The notes below the pieces were generated by a model. That model did no database searches and was not told the origin of the DNA. It worked only from the letters and a program-made list of their open reading frames with translations. A DNA stretch of 64,000 bases from Oscillospiraceae bacterium (lineage in GTDB: Bacteria > Bacillota > Clostridia > Oscillospirales > Ruminococcaceae). Of the stretch, positions 4,639 to 62,404 are shown piece by piece. Made by a program: the position numbers and the translations under genes. Location: positions 1-64,000 of the forward strand of contig JAFUHM010000082.1 in assembly GCA_017468865.1 (NCBI GenBank), in the 5' to 3' direction. Each line of letters starts with the position of its first letter. Position 1 is the first letter of the stretch.

Positions 4639-5544
4639 ATGAACAAGAAATTGACTGCTATCACCATGTCCGCTGTTATCGCTCTTTCCGGGCTGACTTC
4701 CTTCGGCGCGGCTGTATCTGCCGATGAGCCCCTGAACGTGTCTGTTTCGGCATCCAAGCTCACAGGCTGGCAGACCGTGGACGGCGGCAAGTACTACTAC
4801 GGCAAGGACGGCAAGCCTCTCACAGGCTGGAAGAAGATAGGCGGCGACACCTACTACTTCAACTCTGCCAAGAACGGCAAGGCTGTTACGGGCTTTGTCA
4901 CCATTTCGGGCAGCACCTACTACTTCGGACAGGACGGCGTTATGCGCACGGGCTGGGTGAAGCTGTCGGGCGACACCTACTACTTCGGCAATGACGGTGT
5001 TATGCGCACAGGCACACGCACCATCTCAGGCAAGACCTATACTTTCGGCAAGGACGGCAAGCTTTCGACCTCCGCTTCCAAGACCAAGACCGCTGCCAAG
5101 TCGTCTTCCAAGAAGTCCGTTTCATGGGGCGAGTCTTCCGCCAGCGTAGAGAAGAAGCTCGCAGGTCTTGATTACTTCTCCCTGGGGCCCATGATAATGG
5201 TATTCAACAGTGATGCCACCGACCCCAACGCAAAGCTCGACTGCACATTCTATCTCTTCGATGATGCCGAGAAGCTCCAGATGTACGGCACCATGAAGGA
5301 GGGCGTATCCTCCAAGAGAAATTCTCTCGAGAAGTCGGGATACAAGCTCGTAGTCAAGGAGAACTATGAGGGCAACATGGTGTACCTCTACACAAAGGGC
5401 AGCGTAGCCGTAGTCGTTTCCGACTATGTTTCCGAGGGCGTGAAGTACGGCATGACCATGTACCTTTCCCCCGAGATCACCAAGGAGATGACTTCGGGCA
5501 ACACCGATACTCTTGAATCCATATTCGATGACATCGGAATGTGA
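4639..5544 (+). CDS. Secreted protein with choline-binding-type cell-wall repeats
   Basis: The start is set by AAGGAAGGGG before the ATG at 4639; an in-frame ATG at 4609 lacks such a site. The 301-residue product has a signal peptide (MNKKLTAITMSAVIALSG, ending near ADE). It then has about five tandem repeats of the type TGWxxxxGxxYYFGxDGxxxTG (about residues 40-150), characteristic of CW_binding/choline-binding repeats. A Ser/Lys-rich linker and an unrecognised C-terminal domain of about 130 residues follow. Such repeats normally hold proteins on wall polymers. The catalytic or other role of the C-terminal domain is unknown. It is monocistronic, between a strong promoter and a terminator. 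Confidence 0.85.
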   Translation: MNKKLTAITMSAVIALSGLTSFGAAVSADEPLNVSVSASKLTGWQTVDGGKYYYGKDGKPLTGWKKIGGDTYYFNSAKNGKAVTGFVTISGSTYYFGQDGVMRTGWVKLSGDTYYFGNDGVMRTGTRTISGKTYTFGKDGKLSTSASKTKTAAKSSSKKSVSWGESSASVEKKLAGLDYFSLGPMIMVFNSDATDPNAKLDCTFYLFDDAEKLQMYGTMKEGVSSKRNSLEKSGYKLVVKENYEGNMVYLYTKGSVAVVVSDYVSEGVKYGMTMYLSPEITKEMTSGNTDTLESIFDDIGM

Positions 5545-24310: not shown

Positions 24311-27007
24311 TTATCTTGTACCGAAGCTTATCTCCTCACTGTTGGTAAAGGCACTTCTTACAGCTATCACACGGAAGATCATGCCCGATCTGCCGGGGAC
24401 TGCAAGAGGAGCTTTTCCTCTCGTACCGTTGGTTATCACACCGTTTTCAACGGTGGGAGCAGTTCCGTCAAGCGTGTATACGATGTAGCTGTCGGGGGTT
24501 GCGGTGGTAAGGATGATATATCCGTTTGATATGGATGCTGTGGGCTTTGCGACCACAGGGATCTTGAGGATCAGCTTCGATACGTTTGACCACTGTCCGT
24601 TGAGGTATGCCTTTGCATACAGTGTGCCGTAGAAGTCTTCAAAGAGTATCGTCTCGCCTGCCTTCACATGGGCATCGGTGAGCTTGATGTTTGAAGTTGT
24701 GGTGGAATAGTAGATATCGGCTGTGCCGTAGTTGCAGTTGAATGTCACGTTCCTTCCGCCGAATACGCCCTTTACGGCGAACTTGGGTGCTTCAAGGTTC
24801 GTGCTGAACACCTTTTCGGCTATCTCACTGTTGGTAAAGCAGGAGCGTATCGCCCTTGCACGGAGCACGGGGACGCCCGTGATGTCTACCTCTGCCTTGT
24901 TGTATACCCTCGTGCCGTGATCGGGAGTGGGTTCTGTGCCGTCTGTGGTGTACACGATGTAGCACAGGGGAGTAGTCGTGGTTATCTCGGCAGTATTGCC
25001 GGTGATGTTGATGGTGGGTGTGTTTATGTTGGGGATCTTGAGTATCAGGCGGCAGGGAGTGCCCCATATGCCCTTGTAGTATGTGCGTGCGTAGATCGTG
25101 CCGTAGAAATCCTCAAAGAGCACCGTCTCCCCTGCCTTGACATGAGCATTGGAAGTGGTGAGCGCCGAAGTGCCTGCGGCATAGTAGATCTCTGCCCCAT
25201 TTACTGCGGAATTGAAGGTCACGTTCCTTCCGCCGAACACGCCCTGAACCGCAAAGGATACAGTCGCCTTCTTCAGTGCAGCCGCACTGTGAGGGCAGCT
25301 CACGTCATCGCACAGACCGTCGGCAGAGAGAACATGGAAGTATCCCGTGTAGGAGGGAAGCCCGTATCTGCCCGCATAGCTGTAAATATTCGATCCGTAG
25401 GGAAGGTGTATATGGGTCAGAGGGCATCCGTAGAATGCGTTCGTGCCGAGCACAGCCCCCGCAGGGATGTCAAGGCTCGTGAGCTTCGTGTTCGCAAAGG
25501 CATAATTGGCTATGTAGCTCACATCAGGGAGTGTCACAGACGTGACGGCGCATCCGCTGAACGAATTGCTGCCTATGCCCGTTAGTCCGTCGGGGAGCAC
25601 AATGGAGGTGATCTGTGAGGCATATGAGCTCCAGGGAGCAGTCTCATAGTCATACATATCCCCTGTGCCTGTGATGGTGAGGGTGCCGTCAGCAAATTCC
25701 CACCGCAGGTCATCGCCGCATTTGCCGCTGGTAGATACGGCTCCGTCGTCGCCCGGCTTGTAGTCATCGGGGCAGTCGGGGAGGGTGATGCCCATGTACA
25801 TATTATTCTGTGCGGCAGTCTCCACCACATGGTTGTTGTACTGGTCTATGGCAAGCATGGATGCGGTGGAGCGGTTGACAAAGCTGCTGTCAAATCCCAT
25901 AGTGTCGAACCATGTGGGATCTGTCTCGAACCACTTGTCGCCGAACCTTACCCTGTTCCATGCGTGGTCGGCAGAGGTGACGATTATCGTCTCTATGCCC
26001 ACCTTGCTGCACAGGTATGAGAATGTCAGTGCATATCCCGTGCAGACGGAGCGTCCGAAGTACATGGGTGCAAGTATGGACTGATAAGACTCATAGTTCG
26101 TGTCGTAGGTGGTCTTCTGAGCGATGAGCTCGATTATCTTGTATGCCTTCTCCACAGGTGAGGAGCACTTGTTCACTTCCGTGAGCCATGTCGATGTAAG
26201 GGAGTCTATGCTGTTCTTTAAAGACTGTCTGTCGGATGCCTTGCGGCAGTTGTCGTAGGATGCCAGATAGAGCCTGAGACTTCCCGAATTGGTATTCATC
26301 GCCCACACGGGCTTGAGGAAGAAATACCGGGGATTGGAGTGGAAGAACAGCTGGAATACCTGTGATACATCCACCTGATTTGTCTTGTTCAGGTCGATGG
26401 CGACAGATGCGAACCAGCCGCTGCTTTCCGTGGTATCCGTGCCGCTGTTGAGATATGTCTCACAGACATCGCCCAGTGTGTCATACAGTGCCTGCTTGTC
26501 TGCGGAGAGCTGATCGTAGTAAAAGCCGTGTTCGCAGTTGGATGCGCTCAGGTATACGGCGGACTCCACATCAAGGCCGTCCGTCTCTGCCTGTCCCGTG
26601 ACATATCCGATGGCACGGTCAAGTATCTGCGCTTCCTCGTCGGTGATCTCCGCACCGTATGTGCCTACCCCGTCAAAGTCGAGCTTTCGGCTTATCTCGG
26701 CGGTCTTGGCGATGATATCATCGATGCTTTCCGTATCCCCGACAGCTTCCTGTGTGACTTCCGCCTCGACAGGTGTGCTTTCCTCGGTGACTTCGGCAGG
26801 TGCGTTTTCTTCGGAAGTTTCCGCAGGGACGCTTTCTTCGGTCACTTCGACAGGTGCGCTTTCTTCGGAGGCTTCGGAAACTGCGCTCTCCGCCACGGGA
26901 ACGGCAGCCTGCGCAGCGATGCTTTCCGTATCGGCGAATACCGATGAAGCGGCAGTCTTCATCATTGCAAGTGCAAGGACGAATGAAAGGGTCTTCTTTA
27001 CGTTCAT
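24311..27007 (-). CDS. Secreted transglutaminase-like / LRR / CHB_HEX-like repeat protein, paralogue
   Basis: The ATG at 27007 follows GAGGGAGAGTG, 4 bp after the stop of the pyruvyltransferase gene; the longer frame upstream lies inside that gene. The 898-residue product has a signal peptide and a repetitive acidic segment of four 9-residue EESxPxExx units. It continues with the same N-terminal, transglutaminase-like (SVCTGYA, DHAWNRV, ETDPTWFDT), LRR and double A-B module layout as its neighbour. The tight spacing ties it to the glycan genes. Secretion is by Sec; no sorting signal was seen. Confidence 0.88.
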   Translation of the reverse strand: MNVKKTLSFVLALAMMKTAASSVFADTESIAAQAAVPVAESAVSEASEESAPVEVTEESVPAETSEENAPAEVTEESTPVEAEVTQEAVGDTESIDDIIAKTAEISRKLDFDGVGTYGAEITDEEAQILDRAIGYVTGQAETDGLDVESAVYLSASNCEHGFYYDQLSADKQALYDTLGDVCETYLNSGTDTTESSGWFASVAIDLNKTNQVDVSQVFQLFFHSNPRYFFLKPVWAMNTNSGSLRLYLASYDNCRKASDRQSLKNSIDSLTSTWLTEVNKCSSPVEKAYKIIELIAQKTTYDTNYESYQSILAPMYFGRSVCTGYALTFSYLCSKVGIETIIVTSADHAWNRVRFGDKWFETDPTWFDTMGFDSSFVNRSTASMLAIDQYNNHVVETAAQNNMYMGITLPDCPDDYKPGDDGAVSTSGKCGDDLRWEFADGTLTITGTGDMYDYETAPWSSYASQITSIVLPDGLTGIGSNSFSGCAVTSVTLPDVSYIANYAFANTKLTSLDIPAGAVLGTNAFYGCPLTHIHLPYGSNIYSYAGRYGLPSYTGYFHVLSADGLCDDVSCPHSAAALKKATVSFAVQGVFGGRNVTFNSAVNGAEIYYAAGTSALTTSNAHVKAGETVLFEDFYGTIYARTYYKGIWGTPCRLILKIPNINTPTINITGNTAEITTTTPLCYIVYTTDGTEPTPDHGTRVYNKAEVDITGVPVLRARAIRSCFTNSEIAEKVFSTNLEAPKFAVKGVFGGRNVTFNCNYGTADIYYSTTTSNIKLTDAHVKAGETILFEDFYGTLYAKAYLNGQWSNVSKLILKIPVVAKPTASISNGYIILTTATPDSYIVYTLDGTAPTVENGVITNGTRGKAPLAVPGRSGMIFRVIAVRSAFTNSEEISFGTR
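26766..26873 (-). repeat. Four 27-bp tandem repeats inside the transglutaminase-like gene
   Basis: Units start at 26766, 26793, 26820 and 26847 and encode four 9-residue blocks of type EESxPxExx just after the signal peptide. The period keeps the frame, so copy number could vary without loss of the protein. Confidence 0.8.
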
Positions 27008-47722: not shown

Positions 47723-48325
47723 TCAAAGGGCGGCGAAATTTCGCAGGATGGCAAGACCCGCTTCTCCGCTCTTCTCGGGGTGGAACTGCGCACCGTACAC
47801 ATTGCCCCGTGATACCAGTGCGGTCACTCTTGTGCCGTAGTCGGTGTAGGCGGCAACGTCCTCATCCGCACAGTGGGCGCAATAGGAGTGGACGAAGTAC
47901 ACATAGGGCTCGTCAAGGCCGTGGAGAAGGGGACATTCCTTGTTCTTCTCGAGCCTGTTCCATCCCATATGGGGGATATCCAGTCCCTCGGGCTGCATAA
48001 GGGTGACATCGCCCTCGATAAGCCCCAGACCGTCCCTTTCCTCAAATTCGTATCCCTTTGTGAAGATGAGCTGCATACCCAGGCATATGCCGAGGAAGGG
48101 CTTTATCTGCGCCTGTGCCCTGATGGTGTCCACAAGGCCGGAGGCGGTCAGCTTATCCATTGCCGCAGGGAATGCACCCACTCCGGGGAGGATGATGCGG
48201 TCGGCGTTCTCTATCTCTGTCCTGTCCGAGGTGAGGACAGTATTTATGCCGAGGGCATCGCAGGCGTTCTTCACGGAGAAGATATTGCCCGCACCGTAAT
48301 CAATTATCGCTGTCATCGTCTTCAT
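47723..48325 (-). CDS. hisH: Imidazole glycerol phosphate synthase, glutaminase subunit
   Basis: The 200-residue class-I amidotransferase has the catalytic Cys in PFLGICLGMQLIF, and the His and Glu in GAQFHPEKSGEAGL. It supplies ammonia to HisF. The start at 48325 (MKTMTAIIDYGAGN) has GAGGAAAA upstream; the in-frame ATG at 48355 is inside the upstream gene, and 48316 is another possibility. It overlaps the upstream unknown gene by 26 bp. HisF, HisA and HisI are not in the window. Confidence 0.93.
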   Translation of the reverse strand: MKTMTAIIDYGAGNIFSVKNACDALGINTVLTSDRTEIENADRIILPGVGAFPAAMDKLTASGLVDTIRAQAQIKPFLGICLGMQLIFTKGYEFEERDGLGLIEGDVTLMQPEGLDIPHMGWNRLEKNKECPLLHGLDEPYVYFVHSYCAHCADEDVAAYTDYGTRVTALVSRGNVYGAQFHPEKSGEAGLAILRNFAAL

Positions 48326-48794
48326 TATCGTTTTCCTCGTCTTTATCGCCTTCATCGGTGAAGATGAAGTCCGTTATCTCATCCCACGCATCCAGGTCGG
48401 GAAGCTCCCTTTTGATGAACCTGTCGTAGAGTGCGATGGTATCCGCAAGTTCGGGCAGGAACAGCACGAACTGCCGCATGGTGCCGTTGTCAAGGTCATA
48501 GTGGACTTCTGTCTGATAGCAGTCATCTTCCCGAACGGACTGCACATAGGTGATCTTTCCCTTCACACCGTCAAGCTCGGTCCCGATGGGTTCTTCATAC
48601 TCCATGATAAGGCTGTCGGTGTAGGAAACACGCATCTGTGTCAGGCAGGCAAAGATGCCGTTGATGAATGACTTATTTTCATCTGTGCTGATATTTACCA
48701 GATTGAGCCATCCCTCATGGGGTTCGGGCAGGTCGTATTTGTGCCGGTTCGCAAAGTATCTGTCAAAGCACTTTGCCTGAAAACTGTCCTTCAT
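48300..48794 (-). CDS. Unknown acidic protein inside the his operon
   Basis: The ATG at 48794 follows AAAGGAGAGTCAC; the longer frame upstream overlaps hisB. The 164-residue product begins MKDSFQAKCFDRYFANRHKY. It has a mixed alpha/beta middle (MRVSYTDSLIMEYEEPIGTE, VHYDLDNGTMRQFVLFLPEL) and ends in an Asp/Glu-rich tail (DEENDNEDDDSDN). No family was recognised. The position between hisB and hisH, with overlap, implies co-expression with histidine genes. Confidence 0.78.
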   Translation of the reverse strand: MKDSFQAKCFDRYFANRHKYDLPEPHEGWLNLVNISTDENKSFINGIFACLTQMRVSYTDSLIMEYEEPIGTELDGVKGKITYVQSVREDDCYQTEVHYDLDNGTMRQFVLFLPELADTIALYDRFIKRELPDLDAWDEITDFIFTDEGDKDEENDNEDDDSDN

Positions 48795-48831
48795 GTGACT
48801 CTCCTTTTTGCTGAGAACGGGAAGCGGTCTG

Positions 48832-49410
48832 TCACAGTACGCCCTTTGTGGAGAGCACGGTGTCGCCATCGATCTTCACGGCTTCCTTCAGTGCGTGTGC
48901 CAGCGCCTTGTAGAGGGCTTCTATCTTATGGTGGTCGTTTGCCCCGTAAAGACAGCGCAGGTGCAGGGTGATGCCTGCATTAAAGGCGAATGCACGCATG
49001 AACTCCTCGGTAAGGAAGTTGTCATACTGACCTGTTGACTGATTAGCATAGGTGCAGTCGTAGACAAGATAGGGACGGTTGGATATGTCAAGGGAACAGA
49101 AGCCCAGAGCCTCATCCATGGGGATGTAGAAGGAACCGTAGCGGCGGATGCCCTTCATGTCCCCGACTGCCGCCCTGAAAGCCTGACCCAGTGCGATGCC
49201 CGTGTCTTCCACGCTGTGATGGCCGTCCACATAGAGATCGCCGTCGCATTTTACGTCCATGTCAAATCCTGCATGGACGCACAGCGCAGTCAGCATATGG
49301 TCGAAAAATCCTATGCCTGTGTCGATATTGTATTTGCCGCTCCCGTCAAGGTCAAGGCGGATATGTATCTTTGTTTCCTTTGTGGCACGGTCTATGACTG
49401 CTGTACGCAT
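48832..49410 (-). CDS. hisB: Imidazoleglycerol-phosphate dehydratase
   Basis: The 192-residue monofunctional HisB carries the paired metal-binding motifs FFDHMLTALCVHAGF and DGHHSVEDTGIALG, and later NDHHKIEALYKALAHAL. It forms imidazole-acetol phosphate. AAGGAGATAAT precedes the ATG, 9 bp after hisC. Confidence 0.96.
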   Translation of the reverse strand: MRTAVIDRATKETKIHIRLDLDGSGKYNIDTGIGFFDHMLTALCVHAGFDMDVKCDGDLYVDGHHSVEDTGIALGQAFRAAVGDMKGIRRYGSFYIPMDEALGFCSLDISNRPYLVYDCTYANQSTGQYDNFLTEEFMRAFAFNAGITLHLRCLYGANDHHKIEALYKALAHALKEAVKIDGDTVLSTKGVL

Positions 49411-49419
49411 ATTATCTCC

Positions 49420-50472
49420 TTATATGATGGAAAGAACTTCTTCAAGTGCCCTGAGAAACTCGTCTGTTTCCTCGGGTGTGCCTGCGGTGATGCGCAGATA
49501 TACTCCGAGCTGACGGACGGATATATCATGGGCTGTCAGCCCCTTTGCGATCTCTGCCGCCTTCTGGGTGCGAATGTAGACGAAGTTGGTCACGCTGTCA
49601 TACACACGTTCTATGGTGAAGTACCTGTCGGAAAGGTCGAGTATCCCCTGCCGCAGTACGTTGCGTGACTCCGTGATCCTGGCGGTACATTCGTCTATCA
49701 GATCCTTGCGGCGCATGATCGCACAGGCTGCTGCACAGGTAAGGGTGCTGATATTGTAGGGGGATTTTACCGCCCTGAGATGATCGGTGATATCCCTGCA
49801 GGCAAAGGCAAATCCCAGACGGAGCCCTGCCATTCCCATATTCTTTGAGGCGGTCTTGAGCACGATAAGGTTGTCAAGCTGCTCCACCTGATCTATGACG
49901 GACTGATCCCAGAAATCCATGTATGCCTCATCTATCACGCAAAGGCAGGACACGTTCTTTACGAGCCTGACCACGTCCTGACGGCGCACGCCCAGTGATG
50001 TGGGATTGCAGGGGTTGGAGAAGATGACCGCCTTTACGGGATTGGCGGAACAGTATTCGATGACCTTGGATATGTTTATCTTCAGATCGTCCTCTTTGGG
50101 GAGAGTCTGCACCTTCAGCTCGTTGAGAAAGCCGTAGAATGCGTACATGGAGAAGTCGGGAGACACGGTGAGCACCATATCCCCCTTTGCAAGGAACGTC
50201 CCCAGGATGACCGAGATAAGTTCATCGCTGCCGTTGCCTGCGGTGATGAGGTCGGGGGATATGTCAAAATACTCCGCCGCCGCATTTATCAGCTTATTGT
50301 ACTGAGGGTCGGGGTAGCGGTTTGCGGATGCGTCTGCGACAGCACGCATGACGTCCTCGCCGCACAGCTCAATCATGTCGTAGGGAGACTCATTGGAGTC
50401 AAGACGGATACGGCAGGTGCTGTCGGGGGGGATATACAGATCCAGTGAACGGATCTTCTTCGTAAGTTCCAT
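49420..50472 (-). CDS. hisC: Histidinol-phosphate aminotransferase
   Basis: The 350-residue fold-type I PLP enzyme has RLDSNESPYD at the N-terminus and GNGSDELISV. The PLP-lysine segment is VLKTASKNMGMAGLRLGFA, with Lys in TASKNMG, and the C-terminal VRQLGVYLRIT carries the conserved Arg. The start shares one base with the hisD stop (TAATG). Confidence 0.93.
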   Translation of the reverse strand: MELTKKIRSLDLYIPPDSTCRIRLDSNESPYDMIELCGEDVMRAVADASANRYPDPQYNKLINAAAEYFDISPDLITAGNGSDELISVILGTFLAKGDMVLTVSPDFSMYAFYGFLNELKVQTLPKEDDLKINISKVIEYCSANPVKAVIFSNPCNPTSLGVRRQDVVRLVKNVSCLCVIDEAYMDFWDQSVIDQVEQLDNLIVLKTASKNMGMAGLRLGFAFACRDITDHLRAVKSPYNISTLTCAAACAIMRRKDLIDECTARITESRNVLRQGILDLSDRYFTIERVYDSVTNFVYIRTQKAAEIAKGLTAHDISVRQLGVYLRITAGTPEETDEFLRALEEVLSII

Positions 50473-51776
50473 TATTCGTCCTCTTCAAAGCGGATGGATA
50501 TTGCGTTTGCGTGAGCTGTGAGCCCTTCTCTGCGTGCCAGGGTGACTATATCATCCTTTGCCTCACGCAGAGCCGCTTCGGTGTAGTAGATAAACTGGGA
50601 TCTCTTGGTGAAGGATGCGACGGAGAGAGGGGAGAAGAAACGTGCTGTGCCGCTTGTGGGGAGGACGTGATTGGGGCCTGCATAGTAGTCGCCCAGAGGT
50701 TCGGATGACCACTTTCCGAGGAATACCGAGCCTGCATTGTCGATGAGGCCGATGTATTTAAGGGGATCTTCCACCGCAAGTTCGAGGTGCTCGGGAGCAA
50801 GGGAGTTGGCAAGGTCTATTGCCTGTATAAGATCCTGTGCCACGATCGCAGCACCGAAGGAGTCGATGGAGGCACGGATTATGTCACGGCGCTCAAGGCT
50901 CTGCATCTGCCGCTCTATCTCTGCGGCGGTGTCCTTTGCCACGTCCTCGGACGTGGTGATGAGTATCGCACTTGCCATCCTGTCATGCTCAGCCTGTGAC
51001 ATGAGGTCAGCCGCAAGGAGCTTCGGCTCTGCCTTGTCATCGGCTACCACGAGTATCTCGGAGGGGCCTGCCACCATGTCGATGTCCACCGTGCCGTAGA
51101 GCAGCTTCTTGGCGGTGGCAACGAAGATATTGCCGGGGCCTACTATCTTGTCCACCTTGGGGATGGTCTGTGTGCCGCACGCCATGGCAGCTATCGCCTG
51201 TGCGCCTCCCACGAGGAACACCCTGTCCACACCTGCTGCCGCAGCCGCACAGAGTATCTCCTTGTTGGGCTGGCCGTCCTTGCCGGGAGGTGTGAGCATG
51301 ATAAGCTCACGCACCCCTGCTATCTTGGCAGGTACCGCATTCATGAGGACGGTGGAGAAGAGGGGAGCCGTGCCGCCGGGGACATACAGACCCACCCTGT
51401 CAAGACCTCTCACACGCTGACCGAGTATACATCCGTCGGAGCGTGTGTCTATGAATGACTGCTCCTTCTGACGGTTGTGGAAGTCGGATATGTTCTCCAT
51501 GGCGTTGAGCATTGCGGTGATGAATTCGGGGGAAGTCTCGCTCATCTCGGTCATCGCATCGTTTATCACGTCGCGGGGGACTTCGTGGAAGGCGGGGAGC
51601 TTCCCGTCAAATTTCAGGGTGTAGTCATTGACTGCCTCATCGCCCCGAGCCTTTACGTCGTCTATTATATCCGAAACGATGGCGGAGATCTTCTTGTCGG
51701 TGTCTCCGTTTCGCTTCTCTACTTCCTTGAGAAATTCGTATTCAGCGGTGCCGTCCGCCTTTATAATGCGTATCAT
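50472..51776 (-). CDS. hisD: Histidinol dehydrogenase
   Basis: The 434-residue enzyme oxidises histidinol to histidine with NAD and zinc. Visible signatures are RVRGLDRVGLYVPGGTAPL, GGAQAIAAMACGT, DMVAGPSEILVVAD, LMSQAEHDRMASA and PLGDYYAGPNHVLPTSGTAR. The ATG at 51776 is preceded by AGAGGACC; the longer frame upstream has no family character. Confidence 0.96.
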   Translation of the reverse strand: MIRIIKADGTAEYEFLKEVEKRNGDTDKKISAIVSDIIDDVKARGDEAVNDYTLKFDGKLPAFHEVPRDVINDAMTEMSETSPEFITAMLNAMENISDFHNRQKEQSFIDTRSDGCILGQRVRGLDRVGLYVPGGTAPLFSTVLMNAVPAKIAGVRELIMLTPPGKDGQPNKEILCAAAAAGVDRVFLVGGAQAIAAMACGTQTIPKVDKIVGPGNIFVATAKKLLYGTVDIDMVAGPSEILVVADDKAEPKLLAADLMSQAEHDRMASAILITTSEDVAKDTAAEIERQMQSLERRDIIRASIDSFGAAIVAQDLIQAIDLANSLAPEHLELAVEDPLKYIGLIDNAGSVFLGKWSSEPLGDYYAGPNHVLPTSGTARFFSPLSVASFTKRSQFIYYTEAALREAKDDIVTLARREGLTAHANAISIRFEEDE

Positions 51777-51833
51777 TGGTTGGTCCTCTTTTCTGACGGG
51801 GCAAAACACAGCGGCAGAAAGCCGTCTGCTCTG

Positions 51834-52460
51834 TTACTGCCCGATGTTTTTCTCTATCTCGGAGATAAGTGACTCTATCTCGTCCTGTCTGAGCTTCATG
51901 CTCACCATGTTGGCGATGAGCCTTGCGGAGATGGGGCAGATATACTCAAACACTTCCAGTCCGTTCTCCTTCAGTGTGGTGCCTGTTTCCACTATATCAA
52001 CTATGGCGTGGGAAAGACCCAGCAGCGGGGCGAGTTCCACGCTTCCCTCGATCTTGACTATATCCACGTCCATATTCTTCTTCTCGAAGAAATTCCGTGC
52101 CACATTGGGGTACTTGGTGGCGATGGTGCGCACATGGGTGCCGTCGTAGAACCTGTCGCCCTTTTTGCCTGCAAGGGCGAACCTGCATCTGCCGAAGCCC
52201 AGATCCACCAGCTCAAAGAACTTGCCGTTCATCTCGATTATGGTGTCCTTGCCCACAACGCCGAGGTCGCACACGCCGTTCTCCACATAGGTGATGACGT
52301 CCGCAGCCTTTGCCAGCACTACCTCGATATTGTCGCCCACGGGAAGGATGAGCCTGCGTCCCTTGTCGTGGACGGCTGAGCAGTCGTAGCCCATTTTCTC
52401 CAGCAGGCCTACGGTGTCCTTTTCAAGCCTGCCCTTTGTAAGTGCTATGCGCAGCTTCAT
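51834..52460 (-). CDS. hisG: ATP phosphoribosyltransferase, short form
   Basis: The 208-residue catalytic subunit performs the first step of histidine synthesis. It has MKLRIALTKGRLEKDTVGLL and the PRPP-binding segment AIVDIVETGTTLKENGLEV. It lacks the C-terminal regulatory domain of long HisG, so it depends on HisZ, encoded directly upstream with a 4-bp overlap. Confidence 0.96.
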   Translation of the reverse strand: MKLRIALTKGRLEKDTVGLLEKMGYDCSAVHDKGRRLILPVGDNIEVVLAKAADVITYVENGVCDLGVVGKDTIIEMNGKFFELVDLGFGRCRFALAGKKGDRFYDGTHVRTIATKYPNVARNFFEKKNMDVDIVKIEGSVELAPLLGLSHAIVDIVETGTTLKENGLEVFEYICPISARLIANMVSMKLRQDEIESLISEIEKNIGQ

Positions 52461-53638
52461 GATGACACCTCCTCGGTGGAATTCTCACCCACGGTGATTA
52501 TCTTGGGTATGTGCTTTTCCTTAGCGTAGGCAATGGTGTCGCCGATGCTGTCGAATACGGAGTATTCCGCACGCAGTCCCTGCTCCGCAAGTTCCCTTGC
52601 GTACTCTATCGCCTTTATCTCGCATCCGTCCTCGCCGTAGACGATGACATCGCTGACGGGTGCGGGCTTGTCTTCCATCACCCGTGCAAGGGCATCTATA
52701 TTCACCGCAAAGCCCGTAGCAGGCGCATCAAAATCAAACTCACCCAGAAGGCCGTCGTATCTGCCGCCCGAGAGCACCGCATCTCCGCTGCCCTCCACAT
52801 AGCCCTTGACGACGATGCCCGTGTAGTAGTTCATATGGTTTACAAGACCCAGATCCACTGTGACTGCGGGGGAAAGTGACTTCACCTTGGTGAAGATGCT
52901 CTCCAGTTCGTGCAGAGCCTCTACCGCATCGGGTATGCCGTGGGAAAGCTCATATGCCTTCTCAAACACACGCTCGCCGCCGAAAAGTCTCGGGAGCTGG
53001 CGCAGAGCCCTGACCGCAGGGGTGTTCTCATACTCATCGAGAAGGTCGCCCAGTGCGGGGAAGTTCTTGTATTCGATAAGGGAACGTATCTGCTCGGATG
53101 TGTCCTCATCACAGCCCGCCGCTGACAGCAGAGCCTTGAAAAAGCCTATATGTCCCAGTTCCAGCCTGTACCCCGTATTCACGGCGGACAGAGCATCCAC
53201 CGCATTTGCCAGCATCTCCAGATCCGCTCTCTCGGAGGATGAGCCTATGAGCTCTATCCCCGTCTGACGTATCTCGTCACGCCTGCCCCTCATCCCGGGA
53301 CGGCTGCGGTATACGGTCTGACTGTAACAGAGCCTGAGAGGGAGCACCTCTCCTCTGAGCCTTGCGGCGGTCATCCTTGCGATAGGCAGGGTGGAATCGG
53401 GGCGCACCACCATGAGGCGTCCCTTGCTGTCTACCAGCTTGTACATGGTCTCCTGCGGGAAATAACGTGACTTCAGGGCGAAGACATCATAGAATTCAAG
53501 CCCGGGGGTGATGACCTGGGAATATCCCTTTGAGCGGAATATCTCCGTAAGCCTGCCTTCGACTGCCTTTACGGCGGCACTTTCCCCGAAAAGCAGATCC
53601 CGTGTGCCTTCGGGAGTGATAAGATCGTTCTTTTTCAT
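52457..53638 (-). CDS. hisZ: ATP phosphoribosyltransferase regulatory subunit
   Basis: The 393-residue HisRS-like protein starts ITPEGTRDLLFGESAAVKAV and carries class II synthetase motifs without a C-terminal anticodon-binding domain of synthetase type (YRSRPGMRGRRDEIRQTGIE; GGRYDGLLGEFDFDAPATGF). It forms a hetero-octamer with short HisG. AAAGGAAAG precedes the ATG. It is the first gene of the his operon, whose promoter carries an array of 8-bp repeats. Confidence 0.93.
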   Translation of the reverse strand: MKKNDLITPEGTRDLLFGESAAVKAVEGRLTEIFRSKGYSQVITPGLEFYDVFALKSRYFPQETMYKLVDSKGRLMVVRPDSTLPIARMTAARLRGEVLPLRLCYSQTVYRSRPGMRGRRDEIRQTGIELIGSSSERADLEMLANAVDALSAVNTGYRLELGHIGFFKALLSAAGCDEDTSEQIRSLIEYKNFPALGDLLDEYENTPAVRALRQLPRLFGGERVFEKAYELSHGIPDAVEALHELESIFTKVKSLSPAVTVDLGLVNHMNYYTGIVVKGYVEGSGDAVLSGGRYDGLLGEFDFDAPATGFAVNIDALARVMEDKPAPVSDVIVYGEDGCEIKAIEYARELAEQGLRAEYSVFDSIGDTIAYAKEKHIPKIITVGENSTEEVSS

Positions 53639-53670
53639 TGCAACTTTCCTTTTGATTTATTACATTAAAG

Positions 53671-53710
53671 TGATACTATGATACCGTGATATTATGATAA
53701 TATGATACCA
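53671..53710 (-). promoter_or_regulatory. Five in-register 8-bp repeats at the his promoter (operator candidate)
   Basis: Written on the plus strand, TGATA-nn-(A/G) octamers start at 53671, 53679, 53687, 53695 and 53703 without gaps. On the transcribed minus strand they run from the -10 into the leader, covering the expected start site. The exact 8-bp phasing is the kind of spacing at which TrpR-family repressors bind in tandem. Confidence 0.72.
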
Positions 53711-53730
53711 TAGCATCACATAAAAGTCAA
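53702..53730 (-). promoter_or_regulatory. Promoter of the his operon
   Basis: Minus strand TTGACT (53730-53725), 17 bp, TGG-TATCAT (53707-53702). The -10 lies within the last octamer of the array. No T-box leader was seen in the 55 or so bases before hisZ. Confidence 0.72.
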
Positions 53731-53772
53731 TACCGCCCGGGCATTTTCTAATATCATGCCACATATGCACAG

Positions 53773-53792
53773 ACAAATCACGCCTGATTTGT
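53773..53792 (-). terminator. Weak hairpin after the redox gene cluster
   Basis: ACAAATCA and TGATTTGT pair over a 4-base loop, 18 bp below the stop at 53811. The sequence after it (CTGTGC) is not a U-tract, so termination may be incomplete. Confidence 0.4.
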
Positions 53793-53810
53793 GACAAATG
53801 ACAAGTGAAG

Positions 53811-54566
53811 TTACAGCAGGCTCCCGTATCTCTTCGGTATGTCGTCCGCATCCTCACGGCGGACGCTCAGGAGAAGGCCGTTCTCGTCCTTCACCGTCAC
53901 ATATTCGCTGTAAAATGAGGATCTGTCCCCTGCAATGGCGTAGTTGCATACATCGCCCACGCCGCAGGTGGATGTGCGTACAAGTCCTGCGTGTATCTTC
54001 TGGAGCCCCATATGATCGCAGTTGCACATATAGGGGAGATAGGCAAGGAAGCCGTGCTTCCTTGCGAAGTCCGCAATGGGACACCGCAGGAAGGAATATC
54101 TTACGATGCCTCTGCCTGCATCATAGGTACATTCGGTAGGCTCGAACCATTCGCTGTTCTGTTCAAACTGCTTCCGCTTGCTTGCCACGGACAGCTTGAA
54201 TATCCCTGCAATAAGGAGGTTATGCTGCACCCTGTTGGCATTTACCGCCTTGCCAATGGTGTCAAAGGATGCCATGAAGGAGCTGTATACTTCCTGCTGT
54301 ATGACCTCACGGGGCGGCAGATCTTCCGTCGTGTCGAAGTAGGCGAAGAACAGCACCGCATCGTAGAACTGCCCTGAGTGGGGTATCTGCCCGAAGGGCG
54401 GGGCATCCCGAAGCAGCTCGCAGAATCTTTTCTGCACCCTGTTCCAGAGAGCGCCCACCTGAGCCTTCGGAGCGTAGTGCATGAGCATACGTCTCACCGC
54501 ACGGCGGGCAGGATCCGAATATATACGATGTTTTTCCCTGTCGATGGGGAGGCTTTTCTCATTCAT
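53811..54566 (-). CDS. L-2-amino-thiazoline-4-carboxylate hydrolase-like protein
   Basis: The 251-residue protein has, in its last 110 residues, RYSFLRCPIADFARKHGF, then MCNCDHMGLQK and TSTCGVGDVCNYAI. This Cys-rich pattern is characteristic of the ATC hydrolase family (PF14196). Named members open a thiazoline ring in L-cysteine formation. Most Firmicutes relatives are uncharacterised, so the specific reaction is not assured. It overlaps the upstream SDR gene by 8 bp and ends the redox cluster. Confidence 0.78.
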   Translation of the reverse strand: MNEKSLPIDREKHRIYSDPARRAVRRMLMHYAPKAQVGALWNRVQKRFCELLRDAPPFGQIPHSGQFYDAVLFFAYFDTTEDLPPREVIQQEVYSSFMASFDTIGKAVNANRVQHNLLIAGIFKLSVASKRKQFEQNSEWFEPTECTYDAGRGIVRYSFLRCPIADFARKHGFLAYLPYMCNCDHMGLQKIHAGLVRTSTCGVGDVCNYAIAGDRSSFYSEYVTVKDENGLLLSVRREDADDIPKRYGSLL

Positions 54567-61267: not shown

Positions 61268-62026
61268 TCATTCATCTGCGGCATAGCGGCAGATGCGGAC
61301 TGTCCGCTCGGTGGTGTCTGTCACGCCGCTGTCTGTGTAGCCGTCATATTCGCCCAGTATCTCAAATCCCGAGCGGATAAGTATGTCATCGACTGCCTGC
61401 GGATCGAAGGCGGTCTCGCTCAGCTCATCCACGAAGCGGTCGTAGCTTTCCCCGTTGTATTCAAAGAGGTCAAGGAGCATATCTATGCGGCAGTTCTCGT
61501 CCGCCTCGCTGTTCTGCCACACGCAGTACACATCATCCGTGTCATAGACGAAGGTCTGTCCAGACAGTACCTCACGGTGCTTATAGGGCGTGTTCATGTC
61601 GAAGATGAACAGAGAGCCTTTGTGACAGTGGCGTGCCACTCCGCCTATGGCATCTTCCGCCGCCGAAAGGTCGGGGAGGTGGCAGAGCCCGTCAAGGGTG
61701 GAGATGAACACGTCCCATGTGCCGCCAAGGTCGAGTGAGGTCATGTCCTGAAGGACGGGCTGGATATGCACCCCTGCGTCCGTCATATGCTCATAGGCGA
61801 CTGAGAGCATCTCCTCCGAGGCATCCACACCCGTCACGTCAAAGCCGTCCTTTGCCAGCCTGACGGAAAGCACCGCCGTGCCGCAGCCTATGTCGCACAG
61901 GGTCACGGGGGATGACATATCCGAGCCGAACCGTTTCACGGCACGGCGGATGAAATGTTCCATTTCGTCCCGCTCCACATCGTCCGTCAGGCTGTCGTAG
62001 AACCGGGCAAATACACCGTAACTCAT
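61268..62026 (-). CDS. Class I SAM-dependent methyltransferase
   Basis: The 252-residue protein starts YGVFARFYDSLTDDV, a start typical of Firmicutes methyltransferases of the YqeM/UbiE-like type. It has motif I VTLCDIGCGTAVLSVRLA, GVDASEEMLSVA and the post-II segment FISTLDGLCHL. The substrate is unknown. The ATG overlaps the yerC stop (ATGA), so the two are coupled. Confidence 0.87.
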   Translation of the reverse strand: MSYGVFARFYDSLTDDVERDEMEHFIRRAVKRFGSDMSSPVTLCDIGCGTAVLSVRLAKDGFDVTGVDASEEMLSVAYEHMTDAGVHIQPVLQDMTSLDLGGTWDVFISTLDGLCHLPDLSAAEDAIGGVARHCHKGSLFIFDMNTPYKHREVLSGQTFVYDTDDVYCVWQNSEADENCRIDMLLDLFEYNGESYDRFVDELSETAFDPQAVDDILIRSGFEILGEYDGYTDSGVTDTTERTVRICRYAADE

Positions 62027-62340
62027 TCGTCCGTGCCGCTCTCCCATTCGAGCTCTTCGAGCCTGTCCATGACTATCTCATATCCCTTGCCGCCGTACTT
62101 GCTGTTGATGGTGCGGTTGACACGGGAAATGGTGGCGGTGCTGGCGCCTGTGACTGCGGCAATATTGCTGTATACCTTCCCTTCACCAAGGAGCTTTGCT
62201 ACCAGAAGACGCTGGGAGATGGACCTGAGCTCAAGGGGAGTACACAGGTCGTTAAAAAACTCCGCACATTCTTCCTTTGTCTCAAGGCAGAGAATGGCCT
62301 GATACAGCAGATCAAGAGAAATATCTGAATTATTGTTCAT
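62023..62340 (-). CDS. yerC: TrpR-like transcriptional regulator, YerC/YecD family
   Basis: The 105-residue protein matches the YerC/YecD family of TrpR-like proteins: LLYQAILCLETKEECAEFFN, the CTPLELRSISQRLLVAKLL segment, and the helix-turn-helix VYSNIAAVTGASTATISRVN. AAAGGAGTGTCCAA precedes the ATG. It leads the minus-strand run containing hslO and ddl. TrpR proteins bind as tandem dimers at short fixed spacing. The octamer array at the his promoter, about 8.6 kb away, is a candidate target. Confidence 0.93.
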   Translation of the reverse strand: MNNNSDISLDLLYQAILCLETKEECAEFFNDLCTPLELRSISQRLLVAKLLGEGKVYSNIAAVTGASTATISRVNRTINSKYGGKGYEIVMDRLEELEWESGTDE

Positions 62341-62375: not shown

Positions 62376-62404
62376 ATTTTACCACATTAAAATGTAAAAG
62401 TAAA
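62376..62404 (-). promoter_or_regulatory. Promoter of the yerC operon
   Basis: Minus strand TTTACT (62404-62399), 17 bp, TGG-TAAAAT (62381-62376). Several TTTAC/GTAAA motifs lie around it (for example TTTACA and GGTAAA), possibly an autoregulatory site, but without the 8-bp phasing seen at his. Confidence 0.65.

Follow-up and report, generated by a model that had tools for sequence, protein, structure and literature searches.

Upstream of the histidine operon in the stretch of DNA analysed here (64,000 nucleotides, referred to as the window), TGATA-type octamers follow one another across the promoter, and the question raised by this locus is whether they form an operator and, if so, for which protein. 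The original prediction was that YerC, a TrpR-like protein encoded in the same window, represses the his genes by cooperative tandem binding to the repeats. We consider it probable, at roughly 70%, that the array is the operator of this protein, now named HisR, and that HisR dimers occupy it in tandem, one per 8 bp, across the −10 box and the start of transcription.

An octamer array within the his promoter

The genes 3′ of the array were assigned by profile matches and all lie on the minus strand. The operon begins with hisZ (52457–53638; TIGR00443), followed by hisG (51834–52460; TIGR00070), hisD (50472–51809; TIGR00069), hisC (49420–50472), hisB (48832–49410; NF002111), an ORF of 189 amino acids (48300–48869) and hisH (47723–48355; TIGR01855). 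Each named profile was matched above its cut-off; the best match for hisC, TIGR01141, scored 271.8 bits, just below the cut-off of 276.55, and the 189-amino-acid ORF gave no NCBIfam match at 1e-10. The order hisZGDCB, which had been predicted, is borne out by these matches. The closest named relatives of HisZ come mostly from MAGs of rumen and gut origin that bear the labels Oscillospiraceae, Ruminococcus or Clostridia. An ORF on the minus strand (53811–54566), which lies upstream of the his promoter, matched PF14196, ATC hydrolase.

The TGATA octamers start on the plus strand at 53671, 53679, 53687, 53695 and 53703, a spacing of exactly 8 bp, and are followed by a degenerate sixth unit, TAGCATCA. 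The pattern of five TGATA-N3 units has a single exact match in the window and none in 100 dinucleotide-preserving shuffles of the window, even with three mismatches allowed; an exact match to the four-unit form is found nowhere else in the 2.19-Mb genome. TRF ranked it first among the period-8 arrays of the window, with a score of 48 (the sole other period-8 row scored 31). Two further tandem repeats of the window, at 26766–26877 (period 27 bp) and 4899–5058 (period 60 bp), have periods that are multiples of three and are possibly repeats within coding sequence.

The regular octamers were thus correctly predicted, but an extent of five is too short. Read on the minus strand, which is the his-coding strand, seven unbroken octamers run from the −10 box downstream (53709 to 53654), with a TA step exactly every 8 bp, in the order GGTATCAT ATTATCAT AATATCAC GGTATCAT AGTATCAC TTTAATGT AATAAATC; the TA stands at one fixed place in each. 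With a −35 box TTGACT (53725–53730) and a −10 box TATCAT (53702–53707) placed on this strand, separated by a 17-bp spacer, the array covers the −10 box, which lies within the first octamer, and the inferred start site, as had been proposed.

The last two octamers form a site of the published HisR type, CACTTTAATGTAATAAATCA (53653–53672, minus strand), which the original prediction overlooked. It has the TTTA-N6-TAAA form, and 11 of its 14 specified letters agree with the 20-bp palindrome cacTTTAnnnnnnTAAAgtg given as the common Firmicutes HisR site by Ashniev et al. (2022; PMC9413887). That consensus holds two TA steps, at positions 6–7 and 14–15, which are 8 bp apart; the site closes the array on its downstream side with no shift of the 8-bp register, and each extra octamer adds one TA step in the register of the consensus. 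For TrpR, Ashniev et al. print the consensus TGTAcTnGTnnACnAgTACA, which would accommodate a TA step at both of these places (T6 n7 and n14 A15). Individual dyads within the array are imperfect, with 3 to 5 of 8 pairs.

Since most of the array lies 3′ of the inferred start and inverted symmetry is present, the repeats might act in the leader RNA as an attenuator or T-box. However, the array already starts within the −10 box, ahead of the 5′ end of the transcript. An Rfam scan of 53300–54300, with matches considered up to E = 1, gave no T-box or His leader and only sub-threshold unrelated families, and a terminator scan gave no terminator-like site. Control of his through an RNA leader was rejected after these scans, and we regard it as very improbable.

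Conservation of register and changes in length

Promoters of hisZ were collected from the family, in which 129 genomes had a HisZ match. Besides the window's own promoter, 80 were taken, mostly by E-value rank, and 16 further congeners brought the sample to 97; HisZ matches at roughly 30% identity (probably HisS) were left out, and three genomes among the 80 (G059, G094 and G196) were chosen for their lack of YerC. Removal of L080, L141 and L157 (no tblastn match at the start) and of L027 (too short) left 93 promoters.

A run of at least four TA steps at 8-bp spacing was present in 78 of the 93 promoters, versus 2.0% of dinucleotide shuffles, and in 44 of 51 when one promoter was kept per genus. 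Runs of this length were found at a lag of 16 in 19/93 promoters; any other lag between 4 and 20 gave 0 to 5/93. The octamer does look like an extended −10 element, and the periodicity could in principle reflect no more than AT-rich DNA and −10-like hexamers. The shuffle frequency and the low counts at lags other than 8 and 16 argue against such an effect of composition and promoter consensus, as does a count of 1/10 among promoters of the wider class that have a sigma70-like match but come from genomes lacking yerC; it is hardly credible as the whole explanation.

The register could be fixed more closely in the 82 of 94 promoters with a recognisable −35 box, −10 box and terminal half-site (the last TAAA[GAT][TC]). 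The distance from the −10 box to this half-site was 16, 24, 32, 40 or 48 bp in 72 of the 82 (27, 13, 12, 14 and 6 promoters, respectively), and it was a multiple of 8 in 43/49 when each genus was represented once. In the stretch bounded by the anchors in these 72 promoters, TA occupied 167 of 175 in-register positions. Out of register it was seen at 0 or 1 of 247 positions, the exceptions being offsets 3 (105/247) and 5 (73/247), both part of the octamer consensus, which over 320 octamers reads R N T A N Y R Y. With anchor distances in multiples of 8 bp and TA steps between them, the promoters therefore differ by whole octamers. Half-sites are repeated at 8 bp in one register, as in a tandem operator of the TrpR type. 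In many family promoters the left arm TTTA of the HisR site is missing, and the site consists solely of octamers with TAAA at their end.

Length differences of whole octamers between species are also what replication slippage would leave in a neutral or phase-variable microsatellite. Against this, the units have diverged while their TA steps were kept. In the nearest relative, G201 (HisZ 87% identical), the array is equal in length to that of the window, and the TA columns are identical in 13 of 14 cases versus 31 of 42 for the remaining array columns; the register, moreover, is kept in the 44 of 51 genera noted above. TA steps and a register that are kept more often than chance allows, as found here, are the opposite of what a microsatellite predicts, and we consider this origin very unlikely. 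Absence of the array from relatives, which would have spoken against the original prediction, was not what we found: the array is conserved in the family and, more widely, in some members of the class.

HisR and the distribution of arrays

The product of yerC (62023–62340, minus strand) matched TIGR02531 at 109.5 bits, above the cut-off of 42.2, in keeping with the TrpR-like assignment first made; it resembles the solved structures 3frw, 3g1c and 3kor, and a congener's yerC scored above the PF01371 cut-off. A TrpR-family HTH regulator is therefore present, and YerC is the sole copy found in the genome. The proposed role of YerC as a his regulator is supported and is already published: PMC9413887 describes yerC of Bacillus subtilis as encoding HisR, reports HisR in 395 Firmicutes genomes and shows that HisR of Ruminococcus gnavus requires histidine to bind DNA in vitro. 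The fragment used in that sole in vitro test was 30 bp long with one site, and because it was bound, a single site suffices for binding of HisR.

The promoter of yerC itself has a candidate single HisR site (62378–62394, minus strand; TTTA-N6-TAAA(A/G)TG with one mismatch), which may serve autoregulation. TA-N6-TAAA was found 5′ of yerC in 15/21 genomes; in none of the 21 did the yerC promoter have at least four TA steps, and most have one site each. The yerC promoters of three congeners, G208 (L251), G202 (L259) and G210 (L260), carry six TA steps at 8 bp, which lie immediately upstream of their own HisR-type site in another register. A blind search of 20 congener genomes for six TA steps recovered the hisZ promoter in 13 genomes, the yerC promoter in three (G202, G208 and G210) and nine other loci. 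Counts for the backwards pattern resemble the forward ones; this control is compromised because AT, too, has a fixed place within the octamers.

Elsewhere in the genome, exact matches to the HisR pattern (L004–L006) comprised two in or beside unrelated genes, according to the ORF listing, and one preceding a symporter. This last site (L004/L258; C33:30302–30321, outside the window), CACTTTAATCATTTAAAGCG, is near the full published consensus and lies ∼60 bp upstream of a gene for a PutP-like sodium:solute symporter. TTTA-N6-TAAA precedes the orthologous symporter gene at 11 of 18 loci of the genus. The symporter is possibly a histidine transporter under HisR control.

The association between arrays and yerC was assessed in a sample of the class outside the family, comprising 40 promoters from genomes with yerC and 20 from genomes without it, hand-picked from 293 genomes. 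At least four steps were present in 22/40 promoters with yerC versus 1/20 without (Fisher P = 1.6e-4, uncorrected for phylogeny). Half of the regions without yerC (10/20) had no sigma70-like match; when promoters were limited to those with such a match, the counts were 22/38 and 1/10. An octamer array 5′ of his in yerC-bearing relatives, which had been put forward as a check, is therefore present in just over half of these genomes, the other 18/40 being without four steps. The register is looser at class level, the distance from the −10 box to the half-site being a multiple of 8 in only 11/32.

Counting against a link between array and HisR, YerC was not found in G094, G096 and G316 despite their array-like his promoters. 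It is present in G180 and G181, congeners of G094 and G096, and its absence from the latter two could be a gap in the assembly or a recent loss. The use of genomes without a YerC match as a negative control within the family was dropped: the family genomes G059, G094, G096 and G128, of which G059 and G128 are incomplete assemblies, still carry arrays, and because of this only the class-level contrast was used.

The three array-bearing genomes without detectable YerC (G094, G096 and G316) also favour an alternative arrangement, in which a single HisR dimer occupies the terminal 20-bp site and the upstream octamers serve another DNA-binding protein. This arrangement accords with the published model of one 20-bp palindrome and with the binding of the one-site fragment (PMC9413887). 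It fits less well with octamers that extend the register of the HisR site (the 167 of 175 positions above), with arrays that track yerC across the class, and with the many family sites that have only TAAA-ending octamers and no TTTA arm. We judge it unlikely.

A proposed tandem operator and its relation to known systems

The preferred reading is that HisR dimers fill the array. Each octamer, RNTANYRY, would contribute one TA step as a shared half-site, and a dimer would span two adjacent steps (TA-N6-TA, as in the centre of the published 20-bp palindrome), with neighbouring dimers sharing one. If a dimer takes two adjacent steps, the seven octamers at 53654–53709 (minus strand, −10 box included) would provide six overlapping dimer positions, 8 bp apart. 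Dimers charged with histidine would then sit next to one another across the −10 box and the transcript start and exclude RNA polymerase; with the −10 box forming one of the octamers, operator and promoter would be one. Affinity and steepness would both be set by the number of octamers, which in most relatives is 4 to 8, and the change of array length by whole octamers points to the single octamer as a functional unit. The array, its register and conservation, its length changes and its association with yerC are observed; that dimers fill it from end to end, bind cooperatively, repress the operon and respond to its length is what we infer. Against this reading count the array-bearing genomes without a YerC match, the class promoters that lack four steps or the register, the mostly single-site yerC promoters, the binding of HisR to a fragment with one site and the imperfect dyads. 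More tentatively, with a likelihood somewhat short of even, HisR in Clostridia may be a length-tunable assembly of dimers along 3 to 8 octamers starting at the −10 box, in which the gain or loss of whole octamers lets each species adjust how readily and how steeply histidine represses the operon.

Such an operator would revise the HisR model: the single 20-bp palindrome would give way to an array whose shared half-sites keep register with the −10 box. Motif searches built on one palindrome would then mis-score octamer-array promoters, and a single-site model would, if the tandem reading is true, hide a stepwise dial in the operator. The relatives offer a natural series of operators differing in octamer number, in which tandem binding could be tested against metabolic response.

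In Escherichia coli, TrpR dimers bound in tandem step by 8 bp, and the operators hold few dimers. The TrpR analogy drawn at the outset is, for this 8-bp step, consistent with the spacing within the printed HisR consensus. The two systems are alike in regulator family, in an operator lying over the promoter and, as predicted here, in tandem dimers (PMC8745587). That paper describes pairs of TrpR dimers binding synthetic operators in tandem, with affinity and cooperativity varying with sequence in a compensating manner. HisR differs from TrpR in its corepressor and in base recognition, and the arrays here offer about 2 to 7 positions.

The link between YerC and his is not new, being published as the HisR regulon of Firmicutes (PMC9413887). 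The regulator and the TrpR-family principle of tandem binding are likewise known, and what appears to be new is the octamer-array architecture of the HisR operator. A search of the open-licence literature by title and the start of the abstract returned no other description of multi-octamer HisR operators, and in PMC9413887, supplements aside, the words 'two sites', 'multiple sites', 'overlapping', 'octa' and 'octamer' do not occur. The his system of the window shares with the regulon described there the regulator family, the target operon, a candidate autoregulatory site and the TTTA-N6-TAAA core; whereas that account gives a 20-bp palindrome, the promoters here carry successive octamers that keep register with the −10 box, in an array that changes in length by whole octamers.
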